Source of the DNA: Spirochaetota bacterium
Lineage (GTDB): Bacteria; Spirochaetota; Brachyspiria; Brachyspirales; JACRPF01
NCBI GenBank assembly: GCA_016214035.1
Contig: JACRPF010000001.1
Coordinates: forward strand, 1 to 64,000
Length of the DNA: 64,000 bases
Direction: 5' to 3'
Below, piece by piece: positions 19,594-26,449 of this stretch. The translations under genes were made by a program, and so were the position numbers. The notes beneath the pieces are model-generated. The model searched no databases and was not told the DNA's origin. It was given only the letters and a program-made list of their open reading frames with translations. Every line of letters begins with the position of its first letter. The first letter of the stretch is position 1.

Positions 19594-20832
19594 ATGAAAA
19601 AAGTGGTCATCATCGGTGCCGGTACAGCAGGAACGATAACGGCGAATCTGCTTGCCAAACGCGCCGGAAAAGACGTCGCCATCACTGTGGTTGATGCCGA
19701 CCCCTGGCATTACTATCAGCCCGGTTTTCTCTTTATCCCCTTCGGCATGTATACGAAGGAACAGGTGCGCCGCGAAAAAAAGAAGTATCTTCCCCGCGGG
19801 ACCGAGTTCATCCTTAAAAAAGCCGACCATATCGATACGGCGCAGAAAAAGATAACGCTTGCCGGCGGTGACACGCTGTCGTACGACTACCTCGTCATCG
19901 CCACCGGCTGCGACATCGTCCCGGAGGAAATACCCGGAATGAGCGACGGCTGGCGGAAAAACATCTTCGATTATTACACCTATGAAGGTTCGTGCGCGCT
20001 CTTCGACGCCATGCACAATTTTACCGGCGGAAAGCTTGTGGTGCACGTAAACGAGATGCCGGTGAAATGTCCGGTGGCGCCGCTGGAATTCCTGTTCCTG
20101 GCGGACTGGTTCTTCACAAAGCGCAAAACCCGTACGGCCACGTCAATCACCTTCGTGACACCGCTTCCCGGCGCGTTCACCAAACCGGTGGCGGCAAAGA
20201 AATTCGGCACCATGCTCGCGTCGCGCAACATCAGCATGGTGTCAGATTTCGGCACCGAACGCATCGACGCTGCAGCAAAAAAGATAGTCGGCTATGACGG
20301 ACGCGAGGTGTCGTATGACCTCCTCGTCTCCATACCCACGAATATGGGAAGTCCGCTCATCGAAGACTCGGGTCTCGGCGATGAATTCCGGTTCGTACCG
20401 GCGGACAACAATACGCTGCAGTCTAAAGCGCATGAGGATGTGTTCGTCATCGGCGATGCCACCAATCTGCCGTCGTCGAAGGCCGGCGCTGTCGCCCACT
20501 TCGAGGCCGAAACGCTTGTGGAGAATCTGCTCTGCCGCATGAGCGGGAAACCGCTTCACAAAGGTTTCGACGGACACTCGAACTGCTTCATCGAAACGGG
20601 GTTTAACAAAGCCATACTCATCGATTTCAATTATGCGCAGGAGCCGGTTGAGGGACGCTTTCCGTTCCCGGTAATCGGCCCGCTGTCGCTCCTCAGGGAA
20701 AGCGTCATCAATCATCTGTCAAAGCTCGCGTTCGAATGGATATACTGGAACATGCTTCTCAAGGCAATACCGATTCCGTTCATCCCCACGAACATGAGCC
20801 TGCTCGGAAAAAAAATACCCAAACAACAATAA
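19594..20832 (+). CDS. Sulfide:quinone oxidoreductase-family flavoprotein
   Basis: 412 residues. FAD-binding GAGTAGTITA (8-17), ATGCDIVP (104-110) and VFVIGDAT (283-290) give the two-dinucleotide-fold layout. Cys159 in CPVAPLE and Cys331 match cysteines that form the sulfide-oxidising site in the SQR family; Cys106 is a further candidate. The hydrophobic, amphipathic C-terminus (FEWIYWNMLLKAIPIPFIPTN) suits membrane attachment. The reaction would be sulfide oxidation to sulfur or polysulfide with electrons going to quinone. It is followed 15 bases later by a DsrC/TusE-like gene and then a DsrE-like gene, so the sulfur product is probably handed to sulfur carriers. A possible promoter (TTGACG, 17 bp, TACCAT) lies at about 19530-19558. 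Confidence 0.85.
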   Translation: MKKVVIIGAGTAGTITANLLAKRAGKDVAITVVDADPWHYYQPGFLFIPFGMYTKEQVRREKKKYLPRGTEFILKKADHIDTAQKKITLAGGDTLSYDYLVIATGCDIVPEEIPGMSDGWRKNIFDYYTYEGSCALFDAMHNFTGGKLVVHVNEMPVKCPVAPLEFLFLADWFFTKRKTRTATSITFVTPLPGAFTKPVAAKKFGTMLASRNISMVSDFGTERIDAAAKKIVGYDGREVSYDLLVSIPTNMGSPLIEDSGLGDEFRFVPADNNTLQSKAHEDVFVIGDATNLPSSKAGAVAHFEAETLVENLLCRMSGKPLHKGFDGHSNCFIETGFNKAILIDFNYAQEPVEGRFPFPVIGPLSLLRESVINHLSKLAFEWIYWNMLLKAIPIPFIPTNMSLLGKKIPKQQ

Positions 20833-20847
20833 TTACGGAGGCTTGCT

Positions 20848-21165
20848 ATGGCAGCGCAGAAGACATTCGGTACGGCAACGGTAGAGGTCGACGACGAAGG
20901 CTTCATGCAGAACCCGACACAGTGGAACAAAGAGATCGGTGAAGCGATCGCCAAAGAAGAAGGCATCACGCTCACACCGGCGCACTGGAAGGTCATCGAC
21001 TACATGCAGAATGAGTTCAAGACCACAACCGCCGTCCCCACGATACGCAAGATGAATAAATCCGGTGTGGTGACCACGAAAGAACTGTACGATCTCTTTC
21101 CCGGCGGACCGGCTAAAAAAGCGGCTAAGATAGCGGGGCTGAAAAAACCGGTCGGCTGCGTATAG
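20848..21165 (+). CDS. DsrC/TusE-family sulfur carrier with one C-terminal cysteine
   Basis: 105 residues. WNKEIGEAIAKEEGITLTPAHWKVIDYMQ and PTIRKMNKSGVVTTKELYDLFPGGPAKKAAKIAG are typical of the DsrC/TusE/DsvC family. The C-terminus ends PVGCV, keeping the penultimate cysteine that carries sulfur. The second cysteine found about 11 residues earlier in true DsrC is alanine here, so the protein resembles TusE or a single-cysteine carrier and could not form the DsrC trisulfide. Start at 20848 with ACGGAGG upstream. It sits between the SQR and DsrE-like genes. Confidence 0.9.
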   Translation: MAAQKTFGTATVEVDDEGFMQNPTQWNKEIGEAIAKEEGITLTPAHWKVIDYMQNEFKTTTAVPTIRKMNKSGVVTTKELYDLFPGGPAKKAAKIAGLKKPVGCV

Positions 21166-21207
21166 CGCGGGACAACTCACCAAACATATCAAACAAGGAG
21201 CAGTACA

Positions 21208-21702
21208 ATGGCTGAAGGCAAAATAAAAAAGGTTTCCATCGTCGTGTCAAAAGGTTCTATCGAGGGTTCGTACCCGGGGCTCATCATGGCCAACGGCGCC
21301 CGCATGGAAGGCATCGAGGCGAATCTCTTTTTCACATTTTTCGGGCTCGATGTCATCGTAAAAAACCGCATGGGACATATCGGCGTTGCAACCGTGGGCA
21401 ATCCCGCAATGTATTTCCCGCCGAAGAACGGCATACGCATTCCCACGCTGCTCGGCATGCTCCCGGGCATGTCGGCGTTCGCCACCTGGTTTTTCAAGAA
21501 AAAAATGGACAAACTCGACATACCGCCCATTCCCGAATTCGTCGAGATGGCGCATGACGCCGGCGTGAAATTCTACGCCTGCAAGGCGACGGTGGATATG
21601 TTCAAATACACCATGAAGGATTTCTGTCCGCAGGTGGAGGCCGTCATAACCGTGGGAGATTTCTACGAGAAGGCAGCGGGCGGAGAGATTATTTTTACGT
21701 GA
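21208..21702 (+). CDS. DsrE/DsrF/DrsH-like family sulfur-transfer protein
   Basis: 164 residues, soluble. KKVSIVVSKGSIEGSYPGLIMANGARMEGIEANLFFTFFGLDVIVK is the N-terminal half of the DsrE-like fold. YACKATVDMF (about 131-140) holds the cysteine expected to bind sulfur. Members of this group move sulfane sulfur between carriers. AAGGAG lies 9 bases before the start. It is the third gene of the SQR-DsrC-like-DsrE set, so a role in handling sulfur released by SQR is likely. Confidence 0.88.
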   Translation: MAEGKIKKVSIVVSKGSIEGSYPGLIMANGARMEGIEANLFFTFFGLDVIVKNRMGHIGVATVGNPAMYFPPKNGIRIPTLLGMLPGMSAFATWFFKKKMDKLDIPPIPEFVEMAHDAGVKFYACKATVDMFKYTMKDFCPQVEAVITVGDFYEKAAGGEIIFT

Positions 21703-22268: not shown

Positions 22269-23549
22269 CTATCCAATCTCCCGCGAAATATCCAGCGCGG
22301 CAACGGTTCCCTCGGCCGCGGCAATGGTGATCTGCCGGAACGGTTTGCTCGCGACATCACCGACCGCATACACGCCGTCGATACCGGTTCGCATGAGCGC
22401 ATCGGTTTTTATGTAACCGGTATCATCATACGAGAACAGCTTCGGAAACAGTTCCAGGTTCGGGAACATGCCGATGAAAATGAAAATTCCATCAGCTGCC
22501 AATCTGCGCATGGAATTATCCGCATTCACGCGCGATTCGAGGACCATCATCTCACCTTCTTTTGATATTCCCGCCGGCGTGTGACCCGACAGGAATGATA
22601 TATTCTGATGCGCGAACGCTTTCTCCTGCGCTTCCTTATTCGCCCGGAGCATGTCCCCGCGATAGACGATGGTAACATGCTTCGCGAACTTGGCGATATA
22701 ACACGCCTCCTCGACGGCTGAACTCCCGCCGCCGATGACGATGACTTCCTTATCCTGATAATACTTCGCGTCGCAGATGGCGCAATATGATATTCCGTGC
22801 CCCCGGAACTGCGATTCACCCGGTATGGAGAGCGGCCGCGGTGATGCGCCAGTGGCTACGATTATCTTTTTCGCGTAGATGGTCTCCTCATCGTCGATGA
22901 CAACCGATTTTCCGGCGAGGTCTATTCCTGATATCTCGCTCGCGGCCCGGAACTGAACGCCAGCCGCGCGTGCCTGCTCTGTTGTCTTGTGCATGAGCAT
23001 ATACCCGTTTTCCGGTTCGATGAAACCTGGATAATTCGAGACCTGATGCGTTGTGGACACCTGGCCGCCGGGCATAGCGCGGTCAACGACGATAACCGGT
23101 ATCTTCGCCTGCGCAAGGTAGATAGCCGCGGTAAGCCCCGCAATGCCGCCGCCGATGATGAGCACGCCCGTCTCCGTTTCCCGCACGCTGCGCCCCGCAA
23201 GCATTGAACGTCCGCGTTCCTCTCCCACGAGGAGATTGAGGTTCCGGATGATGTCGTTCTTTTTTATCCCGCCGGTGAGCTTATCACCGACACAGGCTCC
23301 GTTGTCGAAGAACAGCAGTGTCGGCGATGACGATACGCCGAGTGAAGTCGCGAGCGGACGGTTCTCCTGACGGAATATCTTTACGAACCGTACATCGCTG
23401 CCATACAATCCGGCAAGCTGTTCGAATTTCGGCGCGAGCGCGTCGCAGGGCGGGCACTCGCTCGAGTAGAAATCAACCACTACCTTGCCGCCCTTAAGCA
23501 CGTCCGCTTCGAATGTCTGCTGATCGCTGTGTTTGATGTGTTCCGCCAT
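22269..23549 (-). CDS. Thioredoxin-thioredoxin reductase fusion
   Basis: 426 residues. The N-terminal ~110 residues form a thioredoxin domain with CPPC (32-35) and SSSPTLLF holding the cis-proline. From about residue 128 there is an FAD/NAD(P)H thioredoxin reductase: GGGIAGLTAA (133-142), the redox pair CAIC (256-259), a second nucleotide motif GGGSSAVEEA and the terminal GVYAVGDVASKPFRQITIAAAEG. Fusion places substrate thioredoxin and reductase in one chain, so it would recycle cytoplasmic disulfides. It starts 2 bases after the radical SAM gene stop, so translation is probably coupled. It supplies reducing power in the Cys-rich peptide operon. Confidence 0.92.
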   Translation of the reverse strand: MAEHIKHSDQQTFEADVLKGGKVVVDFYSSECPPCDALAPKFEQLAGLYGSDVRFVKIFRQENRPLATSLGVSSSPTLLFFDNGACVGDKLTGGIKKNDIIRNLNLLVGEERGRSMLAGRSVRETETGVLIIGGGIAGLTAAIYLAQAKIPVIVVDRAMPGGQVSTTHQVSNYPGFIEPENGYMLMHKTTEQARAAGVQFRAASEISGIDLAGKSVVIDDEETIYAKKIIVATGASPRPLSIPGESQFRGHGISYCAICDAKYYQDKEVIVIGGGSSAVEEACYIAKFAKHVTIVYRGDMLRANKEAQEKAFAHQNISFLSGHTPAGISKEGEMMVLESRVNADNSMRRLAADGIFIFIGMFPNLELFPKLFSYDDTGYIKTDALMRTGIDGVYAVGDVASKPFRQITIAAAEGTVAALDISREIG

Positions 23550-23551
23550 TG

Positions 23552-24859
23552 CTATTCCGCCTTATGAAAATATGTAGCCAGACCCAATCCGATGAGCTTA
23601 TCAACCGGACGGCAATCCGGCGAATTTATTGAACCGCTGCTGTTCTCTGCCACCGCACCGCAGCCCCCGCCGCAGGCAAGCTGCAGGGCACAGTTCCCGC
23701 ATGCGTCGATACTTGTAACATCACGCTGCTGCCAGTGTGCTATCGCCGCCGCGTCATGCGTTACATCCGGAAAGAATGTTCCGAGCTCCTCGCCTTTCTT
23801 TCCGACATTCGCCGTGCAGGAGTATATTGTCCCGGTATAATCAAACGCCCATTCCGTCTTGCATGCGGGACAGGAGTCGAATAACGGCTGCGGCAGTTCG
23901 CCGTTTTCGAAAAGAAACTTCGCTATCGAGAATGCCGGTTTGTGAAAGTCAAGGATGACCGGATTATCCGGTATCATTTCCGCAAGGCGGCTGTAGAGCG
24001 ACAGCCGTGAGAAAAGCTTCGAGCGTTCGGACTGGCAATGATGCAGTTCGTAATTGCGTCCGAGCTGTGTCTTGAAATGCTTCAACGCCGTCCATCCGCG
24101 GTCTTTCGCGAATTGCGCCAGGGCGGGCAGTTCGCCGATATTTTCCGCGTCAACGACCACACGGAGATTGACGGTCATGCCGGCGGCAAGCGCGTCGTCA
24201 ATTCCGGCGACGACGCGGTCGAAACTGCTGCCGCCGTTCTTGAGCGGGCGCCTTGCATCGTGCGTTTCCCGCATGCCGTCGAGTGTCACCTGCACCTCGC
24301 GAAGGCGCGCCCCTGACAGGAGGGGCACATATGACGACAGCGTATAGCCGTTCGTCACCACGGCGATATCGAGTTCCGCTGTTTTCGCACGATCGATGAT
24401 ACCCCCGATAGACGCGCGCGCCGCTGGACCGTCGAGCAGCGGCTCCCCGCCGAAAATGGTGATATATTTTTTACGGCCTGCAAAATTATTTTCAACATAA
24501 TTAAAAAACGCGTCGACAACACCGGTTGAAAGCGTCTGTGAAGGGTTTGTGTATTGGTCCTGATAGCAGTAGGTACAGGCGAAGTTGCACGCATACCATG
24601 GGACGAAGAAAAGCTGCACCTCGTCATTTGCGCGTGATGCAATGAATTCCCGGTAGGCTTTTTCATACCGAACCGCTTCCACCGCCGGATCGACGATATA
24701 TCCCTTCGCGGCATAATCGTCCTTGTGCTTCCACCGTCCGCTGGTGAAATCATCCATCCATGCGGGGTCGAGTATATCCGCATTCCCGCTGAGCGGGTTC
24801 ACGATGAAGTGACGCCCGTCGGATGTTACCCCGGTAATGTTGTGTTTTGAGTAATTCAT
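23552..24859 (-). CDS. Radical SAM/SPASM peptide-maturase-like enzyme
   Basis: 435 residues. A leader region of about 85 residues (FIVNPLSGNADILD) precedes the radical SAM cluster CNFACTYC (C91, C95, C98), then IFGGEPLL and VTNGYTL. The C-terminus holds a full SPASM set: C330, C333, C348 after YTGTIYSC, then CGNCALQLACGGGC (C387, C390, C396, C400) and C416. SPASM enzymes of this build modify peptides or proteins through auxiliary iron-sulfur clusters. The partner candidate is the 30-residue Cys-rich peptide encoded 40 bases upstream. There is no clear ribosome site at 24859, which with the preceding hairpin suggests lower expression than the peptide. Confidence 0.9.
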   Translation of the reverse strand: MNYSKHNITGVTSDGRHFIVNPLSGNADILDPAWMDDFTSGRWKHKDDYAAKGYIVDPAVEAVRYEKAYREFIASRANDEVQLFFVPWYACNFACTYCYQDQYTNPSQTLSTGVVDAFFNYVENNFAGRKKYITIFGGEPLLDGPAARASIGGIIDRAKTAELDIAVVTNGYTLSSYVPLLSGARLREVQVTLDGMRETHDARRPLKNGGSSFDRVVAGIDDALAAGMTVNLRVVVDAENIGELPALAQFAKDRGWTALKHFKTQLGRNYELHHCQSERSKLFSRLSLYSRLAEMIPDNPVILDFHKPAFSIAKFLFENGELPQPLFDSCPACKTEWAFDYTGTIYSCTANVGKKGEELGTFFPDVTHDAAAIAHWQQRDVTSIDACGNCALQLACGGGCGAVAENSSGSINSPDCRPVDKLIGLGLATYFHKAE

Positions 24860-24870
24860 AGTATGTCATA

Positions 24871-24892
24871 CGGGGGATATCGCTATCCCCCG
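24871..24892 (-). terminator. Perfect hairpin between the Cys-rich peptide gene and the radical SAM gene (probable attenuator)
   Basis: CGGGGGATA (24871-24879), a four-base loop and TATCCCCCG (24884-24892) form a perfect 9-bp, GC-rich stem. It begins 7 bases after the peptide stop codon. No long T-run follows on the minus strand, so it may act as a partial terminator, RNA-end stabiliser or processing site rather than a full stop. Confidence 0.65.
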
Positions 24893-24899
24893 GTGACCG

Positions 24900-24992
24900 C
24901 TAGTCGTGACAACCGGCGATCGTTCTCGAGACCTTTGCGCAGCACTGAGCTACAGTACAGCACGCGGCCTTTTTCGTGATGAGAGAAGTCAT
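24900..24992 (-). CDS. 30-residue Cys-rich peptide, candidate RiPP precursor or thiol peptide
   Basis: The frame reads MTSLITKKAA followed by CCTVAQCCAKVSRTIAGCHD. It has five cysteines: two adjacent pairs (11-12 and 17-18) and Cys28. The start has a near-perfect ribosome site, AAGGAGGT, four bases before the ATG, stronger than that of any neighbour. The gene lies within a minus-strand operon between the ArsM-like methyltransferase (30-base gap) and the radical SAM/SPASM gene. I do not recognise the peptide. A short basic N-terminal part could serve as leader and the Cys-rich part as core, or the vicinal thiols could bind a metal or arsenite directly. Confidence 0.75.
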   Translation of the reverse strand: MTSLITKKAACCTVAQCCAKVSRTIAGCHD

Positions 24993-25022
24993 GAGTACCT
25001 CCTTACAATTTTATACAAGCGA

Positions 25023-25646
25023 TCACACAGCGGGCTTTTTCCCCGCAATGGTGATACTCGCCACCGTGACGGCGCCTTTTGCGTACGGTTCGCTTTCTTC
25101 TAGCAGCTGTATGTGAACGAAGCCTGCCTGCCTGAGCGTCGCGAGATATTCCTCACGGGTGACAGCGCCGGCCCAGCACTCGGCCACGGCTTTCGGGTCG
25201 TTGCGGAAACGTTCCGGCACCGGTTCTGTGGAATAAATATCGCTCACGACGAAACGGCCGTCCGGCTTGAGTATGCGCCACACCTCATGCCACACCGCGG
25301 CTTTTTCACGCGCATGATTGATGGTGCAGTTCGATATGACTACATCGGCGATCGCATCATCGAGCGGAAGCGATTCCAGTTCGCCTTTCAGGAACGATAC
25401 GTTATCGACACCGGCCTCGCGAGCGTTCTCGCGGGCCTTTGTCAGCATCCCGTCGGAAATATCTACACCATAGGCGAATGCAACACCCTGATGAACTGCT
25501 TTTATGACGTCGTTACCGCGGCCGCTTCCCAGATCGACGAGGACTTCTCCTACCCTGATTCCCGCCCGGGCCAGTGCTCCGCCGCAGGAGAGACAGGTCT
25601 TTTTTTCCGCGAGCGCGGAATACCGTTCATTGATGGCAATACTCAT
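25023..25646 (-). CDS. ArsM-like SAM-dependent methyltransferase
   Basis: 207 residues. VLVDLGSGRGND (35-46) is the SAM-binding loop, followed by GVDISDGMLTKARENA and LPLDDAIADVVISNCTINHA. Cysteines are Cys18/Cys21 (CLSC), Cys107 (SNCTIN) and Cys157 (ECWAGA). The 50-residue spacing of Cys107 and Cys157, and their sequence context, match the two arsenite-binding cysteines Cys174/Cys224 of algal ArsM as I recall them. Arsenite methylation is therefore possible, as is methylation of the peptide product. GGGAG precedes the ATG. It lies 13 bases after the secreted thioredoxin-like gene. Confidence 0.82.
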   Translation of the reverse strand: MSIAINERYSALAEKKTCLSCGGALARAGIRVGEVLVDLGSGRGNDVIKAVHQGVAFAYGVDISDGMLTKARENAREAGVDNVSFLKGELESLPLDDAIADVVISNCTINHAREKAAVWHEVWRILKPDGRFVVSDIYSTEPVPERFRNDPKAVAECWAGAVTREEYLATLRQAGFVHIQLLEESEPYAKGAVTVASITIAGKKPAV

Positions 25647-25659
25647 GATGGCTCCCGCA

Positions 25660-26109
25660 TTACCGCGCTTTACCGGATATGATGTCTTTCACATGATCCG
25701 CATACAGCGCACCGCCGCCCTGACGATATCCGGTGGTACCGGCAAGCTCACCCTTCGGGGTCAGCACAAGAACGGTGGGAAATCCCGGAACGCCGAACTG
25801 CCGAGCCAGCTCCTGGTTCTGCTTTTTCAACGTATCGCTCTGTTTTTTCGCCCGGGGAAAATCGAGTTCGACACAAATGAGGTTCTTCTCCGCGTACTTC
25901 TGGAATTCAGGTGTCGCGAACACTTCATCACGCAGACGGAAACACCAGGGACACCAGTCGGAACCGGTGAAGTTCAGCAGCAGATGTTTCGAAGTTTTCT
26001 GCGCTTCGGCAAGGGCTTGAGCGTAGTCTGTTTCCCATCGTATCGGCGCCGCCCACATAAGTGAGACCATTGCGCCCAGTACTATCGTAAACAATGTTCT
26101 TTTATTCAT
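25660..26109 (-). CDS. Secreted thioredoxin-like protein
   Basis: 149 residues from the ATG at 26109, which has GGAGGT upstream. Residues 1-21 form a signal peptide (TLFTIVLGAMVSLMWAAP). TGSDWCPWCFRLRDEVF carries the CxxC pair (Cys53, Cys56) in the context of periplasmic thioredoxin_7/DUF255-type proteins, and VPGFPTVLVLTPKG supplies the cis-proline loop. It probably handles disulfides outside the cytoplasm. It begins 4 bases after the thioredoxin stop codon, so the two are co-translated. Confidence 0.88.
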   Translation of the reverse strand: MNKRTLFTIVLGAMVSLMWAAPIRWETDYAQALAEAQKTSKHLLLNFTGSDWCPWCFRLRDEVFATPEFQKYAEKNLICVELDFPRAKKQSDTLKKQNQELARQFGVPGFPTVLVLTPKGELAGTTGYRQGGGALYADHVKDIISGKAR

Positions 26110-26113
26110 ATAC

Positions 26114-26449
26114 TCATACCTCCGTATATAATTTTTCAAGTGCGCTTTGCAGTGTTGCTTCCGACTGCACGCCGACGAAACCGGCAACCGGTTCCCCGTC
26201 CTTGAATATGATCAGGGTCGGTATGCTCGTGATGCCGAGCGCCTGCGCTGCGGCGGGGCTTTCATCCACATTGAGTTTGGCTATTTTCGCCTTGTCGCCG
26301 ATTTTCTTTGCGAGCGTCTCGAGAATGGGTCCCTGCATGCGGCAGGGCATGCACCATTCCGCCCAGAAATCGACGAGGGTAACGCCTTTGGCTACGGCTT
26401 CCTGAAAGCTGGTATCATCGAGCTTGATTGTAGTATCGGTTGCAGTCAT
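26114..26449 (-). CDS. Thioredoxin with CMPC active site
   Basis: 111 residues from the ATG at 26449, chosen for the AAGGAG site; a 60-residue upstream extension is rejected. LVDFWAEWCMPCRMQGPILE has the redox pair Cys33/Cys36 as CMPC rather than the usual CGPC, and ITSIPTLIIFKDGE gives the cis-proline. It is a soluble thiol-disulfide oxidoreductase. As first gene of the operon it is controlled by the palindrome and -10 box at 26477-26517, and its electron donor is probably the thioredoxin reductase fusion at the end of the same operon. Confidence 0.92.
   Translation of the reverse strand: MTATDTTIKLDDTSFQEAVAKGVTLVDFWAEWCMPCRMQGPILETLAKKIGDKAKIAKLNVDESPAAAQALGITSIPTLIIFKDGEPVAGFVGVQSEATLQSALEKLYTEV

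Follow-up and report, generated by a model that had tools for sequence, protein, structure and literature searches.

A conserved four-gene SPASM cassette with a short cysteine peptide: a possible undescribed cofactor or metal-binding system

The genes considered here lie in a 64,000-nucleotide stretch of contig JACRPF010000001.1 (assembly GCA_016214035.1) from a Spirochaetota bacterium, hereafter the window, in which a gene for a 30-residue cysteine-containing peptide adjoins one for a radical S-adenosylmethionine (SAM)/SPASM enzyme. The peptide gene is a real coding gene under strong constraint, and it is paired one-to-one with the SPASM enzyme within a cassette found across phyla, whose core of four genes consists of an ArsM-like methyltransferase, the peptide, an RRE-like/SPASM maturase and a fusion of thioredoxin to thioredoxin reductase (Trx::TrxR). 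This conserved set suggests a system, as yet undescribed, in which a peptide serves as cofactor or in metal binding, and we consider it probable, at roughly 0.7, that the cassette serves the biosynthesis of an undescribed cofactor-type ribosomally synthesized and post-translationally modified peptide (RiPP), with a core modified by the SPASM enzyme, reduction by Trx::TrxR, and the methyltransferase acting in the same pathway. The features of the locus are:

24900..24992, minus strand: precursor-type peptide, 30 amino acids, MTSLITKKAACCTVAQCCAKVSRTIAGCHD; the invariant core AQCC-K------GCHD spans residues 15-30, after an N-terminal MxSL[I/V] and a variable linker
23552..24859, minus strand: radical SAM/SPASM enzyme, 435 amino acids, with an RRE-like beta3-alpha3 domain at residues 1-80 and all of the SPASM cysteines; CteB is the nearest of the solved structures
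25023..25646, minus strand: ArsM-like SAM-dependent methyltransferase, 207 amino acids, shorter than canonical ArsM; C21, C107 and C157 do not vary and correspond to the cysteines with which ArsM binds arsenite
22269..23549, minus strand: thioredoxin domain (ECPPC) fused to thioredoxin reductase (Trx::TrxR), a member of the core cassette
24864..24893, minus strand: RNA hairpin past the peptide stop and ahead of the SPASM start, with a 9-bp inner stem (CGGGGGAUA/UAUCCCCCG) and outer pairs
25660..26109, minus strand: DsbH/thioredoxin-7-like protein with a hydrophobic N-terminus, in the window operon and outside the conserved core
26114..26449, minus strand: thioredoxin TrxA, in the window operon and outside the conserved core

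A preliminary description of this locus had proposed an operon of six minus-strand open reading frames (ORFs) with intergenic gaps of 4, 13, 30, 40 and 2 bases. All six ORFs are present and adjoin one another with exactly these gaps, but it is a core of four that is conserved as a unit, and the lack of conservation of the TrxA and DsbH-like genes across loci rules out the six-gene operon as the unit. The ATG of the peptide is preceded by a AAGGAGGTACTC ribosome site. Among the 829 ATG-started frames of 20-60 amino acids in the window, two contain two CC pairs with at least five cysteines and four have an AGGAGG or GGAGGT site, and the peptide frame alone has both features.

The conservation of the peptide was assessed in a set of loci found with the SPASM protein, comprising 80 named loci in Bacteroidota, Spirochaetota, Ignavibacteriota, Myxococcota and unassigned bins, and 7 further relatives from the phylum of the window. 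Of 88 first-pass loci, 85 have a short ORF ending in AQCC....GCHD-stop next to the SPASM gene; the wider consensus is AQCC[AST]Kx[ST]xxxxGCH[D/N]-stop, and the ORF usually lies upstream at a distance of about 70 bases (median 70, 106 loci). At nine core positions all 85 copies agree (A, Q, C, C, K, G, C, H and D), while synonymous codons vary freely and all three types of stop codon are used. Because the search pattern itself required CC and CHD-stop, it is the A, Q, K and G that provide independent evidence of conservation. A chance ORF is ruled out by the conservation across phyla together with this codon freedom. The three exceptions are a variant ending in GCHN (L063), which shows that the final D can vary, a locus cut at a contig end (L086), and a divergent copy in genome G040 (L006), where the peptide gene lies about 2.3 kb away. 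Outside the core, the peptides share an MxSL[I/V]-like N-terminus followed by a linker that varies in both length and sequence; in more distant spirochaete clades the motif reads QCC[AS]KxSxIISGCHD. The cysteines of the window peptide are placed as first described, with CC at 11-12, CC at 17-18, and Cys28. Cys17, Cys18 and Cys28 are invariant, but the first pair is optional and found only in a minority of copies, so that two CC pairs are ruled out as the functional feature. No NCBIfam family matched the peptide at a meaningful E-value; a single match of one member (E 0.21), suggestive of an ArsD/VcpD link, was not used.

The association with the SPASM enzyme also holds at the level of genomes. 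Across 247 spirochaete genomes, the peptide profile matches 33 and the SPASM profile 32, with one peptide match per genome, and an ArsM-like match is present in all 33 peptide-bearing genomes. The three genomes in which peptide and SPASM matches disagree are 71-76% complete: in G183 the start of the SPASM gene is at a contig end, in G085 the contig is cut inside it, and in G218 the peptide is near a contig end. The preliminary description had named homologous operons without a similar peptide frame as a refuting observation, and the outcome of this check favours the peptide: such operons were found only at contig ends or, in G040, with the divergent copy described above. The proposed pairing of peptide and SPASM enzyme is therefore strongly supported, by the same short peptide upstream of SPASM homologues in several phyla as well as by the matching genome counts, and the arrangement by which a RiPP is recognized, a gene-encoded precursor beside its maturase, is found here as a conserved ORF adjoining the SPASM gene.

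All four core genes are present in 89 of 106 loci, a set that contains some overlapping records of one place, and most of the remaining loci run off the contig or the stored end. The gene order varies, with Trx::TrxR usually last and in several clades ahead of the methyltransferase. Pairwise distances between the proteins are correlated (Mantel r of 0.92 for methyltransferase and SPASM enzyme, 0.76 for SPASM enzyme and Trx::TrxR, and 0.73 for methyltransferase and Trx::TrxR; 0 of 999 permutations as high), and the SPASM tree displays a modest mixing of phyla, which is not proof of transfer. The isolate Carboxylicivirga linearis (L044) has the whole four-gene set. In many Bacteroidota a small thioredoxin-like gene is found between methyltransferase and peptide (L014, L016, L027, L055, L060, L071, L072, L078). 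In one 76% complete genome (G061, L160), a methyltransferase of the cassette type lies close to a contig end, and neither a peptide nor a SPASM match is present.

Folding of the region that follows the peptide gene brings in a quite different role for the short ORF. The 50-nucleotide segment 24856-24905 has a minimum free energy of -21.3 kcal/mol (z -3.8), and 52% of loci have a z below -2 in the stretch following the peptide stop, compared with 13% for methyltransferase, 7% for SPASM and 21% for Trx::TrxR stops. The ORF could in principle be a regulatory leader, its cysteine codons and the hairpin controlling the SPASM gene by attenuation while the peptide itself is inert. The consecutive cysteine codons agree with such a leader, as does the hairpin that about half of the loci have past the stop, but the invariance of the non-cysteine residues Q, K, G, H and D despite free codon choice, the divergent ORF 2.3 kb away in G040, and the small number of hairpins with a T-run (11 of 103) make it very improbable. 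An enrichment of hairpins after the peptide stop is expected if the precursor is made in excess over the enzyme, and fits a hairpin that may confer extra stability on, or increase the output of, the precursor message.

The SPASM enzyme carries a radical SAM CxxxCxxC motif (C91, C95, C98) and seven SPASM cysteines (C330, C348, C387, C390, C396, C400 and C416), all ten of which are invariant in 30 homologues, in agreement with the complete cysteine set noted at the outset. In its AlphaFold model (pLDDT 87.6), the best match among solved structures is CteB, the SCIFF maturase (TM 0.71), and the N-terminal 80 residues adopt a beta3-alpha3 topology (pLDDT 88), for which the top two Foldseek matches are RRE-bearing proteins, with E-values of 0.11 and 0.27 that are not significant. 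The best NCBIfam matches over the length of the protein are CefB (NF038107, the "Cys-every-fifth" maturase; 142 bits, cut-off 600) and TIGR04463 (127.8 bits, cut-off 525), both scored far below the cut-offs, and the peptide lacks the Cys-every-fifth pattern; against the TIGR03974-type maturases the protein scores 75 bits, with a cut-off of 425. By these tests, the system does not belong to SCIFF, CefB or TIGR04463.

The methyltransferase raises the question of arsenic. Its best solved relatives are arsenite methyltransferases, with which it shares the fold, and C21, C107 and C157 are invariant in 26 of 26 aligned sequences and equivalent to CmArsM Cys72/174/224, residues named in PMC12608789. 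At about 210 amino acids the cassette enzyme nevertheless lacks parts of the longer ArsM, and the window copy reaches 194.7 bits against the 263-bit cut-off of NF008823, with other spirochaete cassette copies scoring up to about 242. At least two cysteines are present in the C-terminal tail of 58 of 79 homologues. In one distant clade a Cys-rich DUF5714 protein is encoded directly before the methyltransferase (L007:1-711, L009:3-698, L010:3589-4293).

ArsM-superfamily methyltransferases are paired with radical SAM enzymes in the pathways to arsenosugars (ArsM and ArsS) and arsinothricin (ArsL and ArsM), although their radical SAM enzymes come from other families and no ribosomal peptide is involved. 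One could envisage the cassette as an arsenic or antimony system, with the three peptide cysteines binding As(III) and passing it to the ArsM-like enzyme for methylation, Trx::TrxR as the reductant, and the SPASM enzyme tailoring the peptide or the arsenical. Besides the conserved cysteines and Cys-rich tails of the methyltransferase, individual loci favour this: in G040 the cassette is located in an arsenic island (L121:1-9001) with canonical ArsM, ACR3, ArsC, an ArsR-type regulator, from which the peptide gene is divergent, and CcdA; an ArsP-like permease is found near L120 and L052, and ACR3 in L017. At the genome level, ACR3 (23/34 with the cassette versus 78/213, Fisher p 0.001) and canonical ArsM (9/34 versus 11/213, Fisher p 0.0004) are both enriched, in comparisons uncorrected for lifestyle or ancestry. 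Ars-type genes, however, neighbour the cassette at just about 4 loci out of about 100, so that it has no regular linkage to ArsR, ACR3, ArsP or ArsC. A separate canonical ArsM above the cut-off is present in 9 of 34 cassette genomes, of which the cassette methyltransferase is therefore not the sole ArsM, and in G149 the canonical enzyme is inside an ACR3/ArsC/permease island away from the cassette. The missing length and sub-threshold score of the cassette enzyme likewise argue against such a system, which we regard as rather unlikely. The suggestion of the preliminary description that the peptide binds arsenite for this enzyme retains some ground, in that the invariant cysteines of both proteins make binding possible, but loses some through the usual distance from ars genes and the separate ArsM of nine genomes; an arsenic role for the cassette is possible, though unsupported by the gene neighbourhood.

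That neighbourhood leans instead, clade by clade, towards thiol and sulfur biology. Recurrent same-strand neighbours in Bacteroidota include DUF302, DUF6132, DUF1847, SQR-like flavoproteins, OsmC, thioredoxins and methionine gamma-lyase. In spirochaetes, a MarR-type regulator is encoded upstream of the methyltransferase (L012, L018, L049, L056, L077, L083, L099, L106, L123), typically with a conserved Cys (or CC) in its first helix and another close to its C-terminus, and could be a sensor of thiols or metalloids. The window itself has an SQR type III gene (19594-21702, plus strand) with DsrC and DsrE2 after it, and these genes form a sulfur-transfer group adjoining the cassette. The SQR scores above the cut-off for the NCBIfam selenoprotein subtype, yet has a full frame with no internal stop. 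Carriage of the cassette on a plasmid was rejected, as there was no plasmid match at E 1e-40. The neighbours would suit a sulfur or thiol system, with the modified peptide as cofactor or carrier of sulfane sulfur, sulfide or methanethiol, and with a methyltransferase that acts on thiols. This stays a tentative alternative, as the neighbours are clade-specific, the DUF302/DUF6132/SQR signal comes mostly from related Bacteroidales, and the invariant core contains no sulfur gene at all. Of the thioredoxins, which had been proposed to keep the peptide thiols reduced, the Trx::TrxR fusion belongs to the core and makes the idea plausible, whereas the separate TrxA and DsbH-like genes fall outside it.

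A small Cys-rich peptide beside an RRE-like/SPASM enzyme also resembles the clusters of sacti- and ranthipeptides, and hence a secreted RiPP natural product, bacteriocin or signal. The core lacks genes for export, proteolysis or immunity, and the peptide has a core sequence that is fixed across phyla rather than diversified and a single copy per genome; we find this reading very improbable. The SCIFF peptide has itself been argued to be non-antimicrobial because it is broadly conserved (PMC8326336). SCIFF and its maturase CteB, of the ranthipeptides, offer a close likeness, with an RRE-SAM-SPASM enzyme beside a short Cys-rich peptide; here, however, three invariant cysteines occur in 30-43 amino acids with a CC...GCHD end, compared with six in 45 in SCIFF, identity to CteB is about 18% by structural alignment, and the core partners are the ArsM-like methyltransferase and Trx::TrxR. 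Mycofactocin and pyrroloquinoline quinone (PQQ) share with the cassette a short precursor, a conserved C-terminal core, a SPASM enzyme and a presumed cofactor role (a family logic drawn in part from PMC8326336), but no core sequence, and the cassette core includes no recognizable downstream peptidase, dehydrogenase or glycosyltransferase. In line with the preliminary description, which knew of no system with this gene set, no description of the cassette was found in the main texts of the open-access papers searched, nor does anything resembling it appear in the main text of a survey annotating 22 unpublished radical SAM-peptide pathways. The best reading is a new cofactor-type RiPP family with a core modified by the SPASM enzyme.

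In such a pathway, the RRE-like domain of the SPASM enzyme would recognize the short peptide N-terminus, M-K-S-L-[I/V], and the enzyme would modify the C-terminal core, which is fixed as AQCCAKxSxxxxGCHD; the most likely change is a crosslink that starts at Cys17, Cys18 or Cys28, while Trx::TrxR would hold the cysteines reduced before and after modification. The methyltransferase may target the peptide thiols, or a soft metal(loid) held by the peptide, and the product would probably be a cytosolic redox or metal(loid)-thiol cofactor. That the peptide is the substrate of the SPASM enzyme is strongly inferred; its modification, the site and all later functions are predictions. Several points weigh against this cofactor reading. 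The modified form is predicted only, the SPASM protein is far below the cut-offs of the nearest RiPP maturases (142/600, 128/525), and, with a best E of 0.11, the RRE assignment is no more than suggestive. The conserved core has neither a protease nor an exporter gene, and genetic linkage in an operon is by itself too little to establish the action on the peptide that the preliminary description had proposed for the methyltransferase. In a more specific version, which we deem very unlikely, As(III) or another soft metal(loid) would be bound by the three cysteines of the core and methylated there by the ArsM-like enzyme, for which Trx::TrxR would be the reductant, while the SPASM enzyme would fasten it to the peptide, producing a beneficial metalloid-peptide cofactor.

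A 16-residue core that is nearly unchanged across several phyla, and almost always accompanied by the same four genes, resembles a housekeeping cofactor and not a weapon. Ribosomal cofactors are few, namely PQQ, mycofactocin and perhaps SCIFF, and the peptide gene is short enough for annotation pipelines and gene finders to miss. Because the isolate Carboxylicivirga linearis has the whole set, both the chemistry and the phenotype are directly testable. Finally, the cassette raises the prospect of a role for an ArsM-type enzyme beyond arsenic detoxification.

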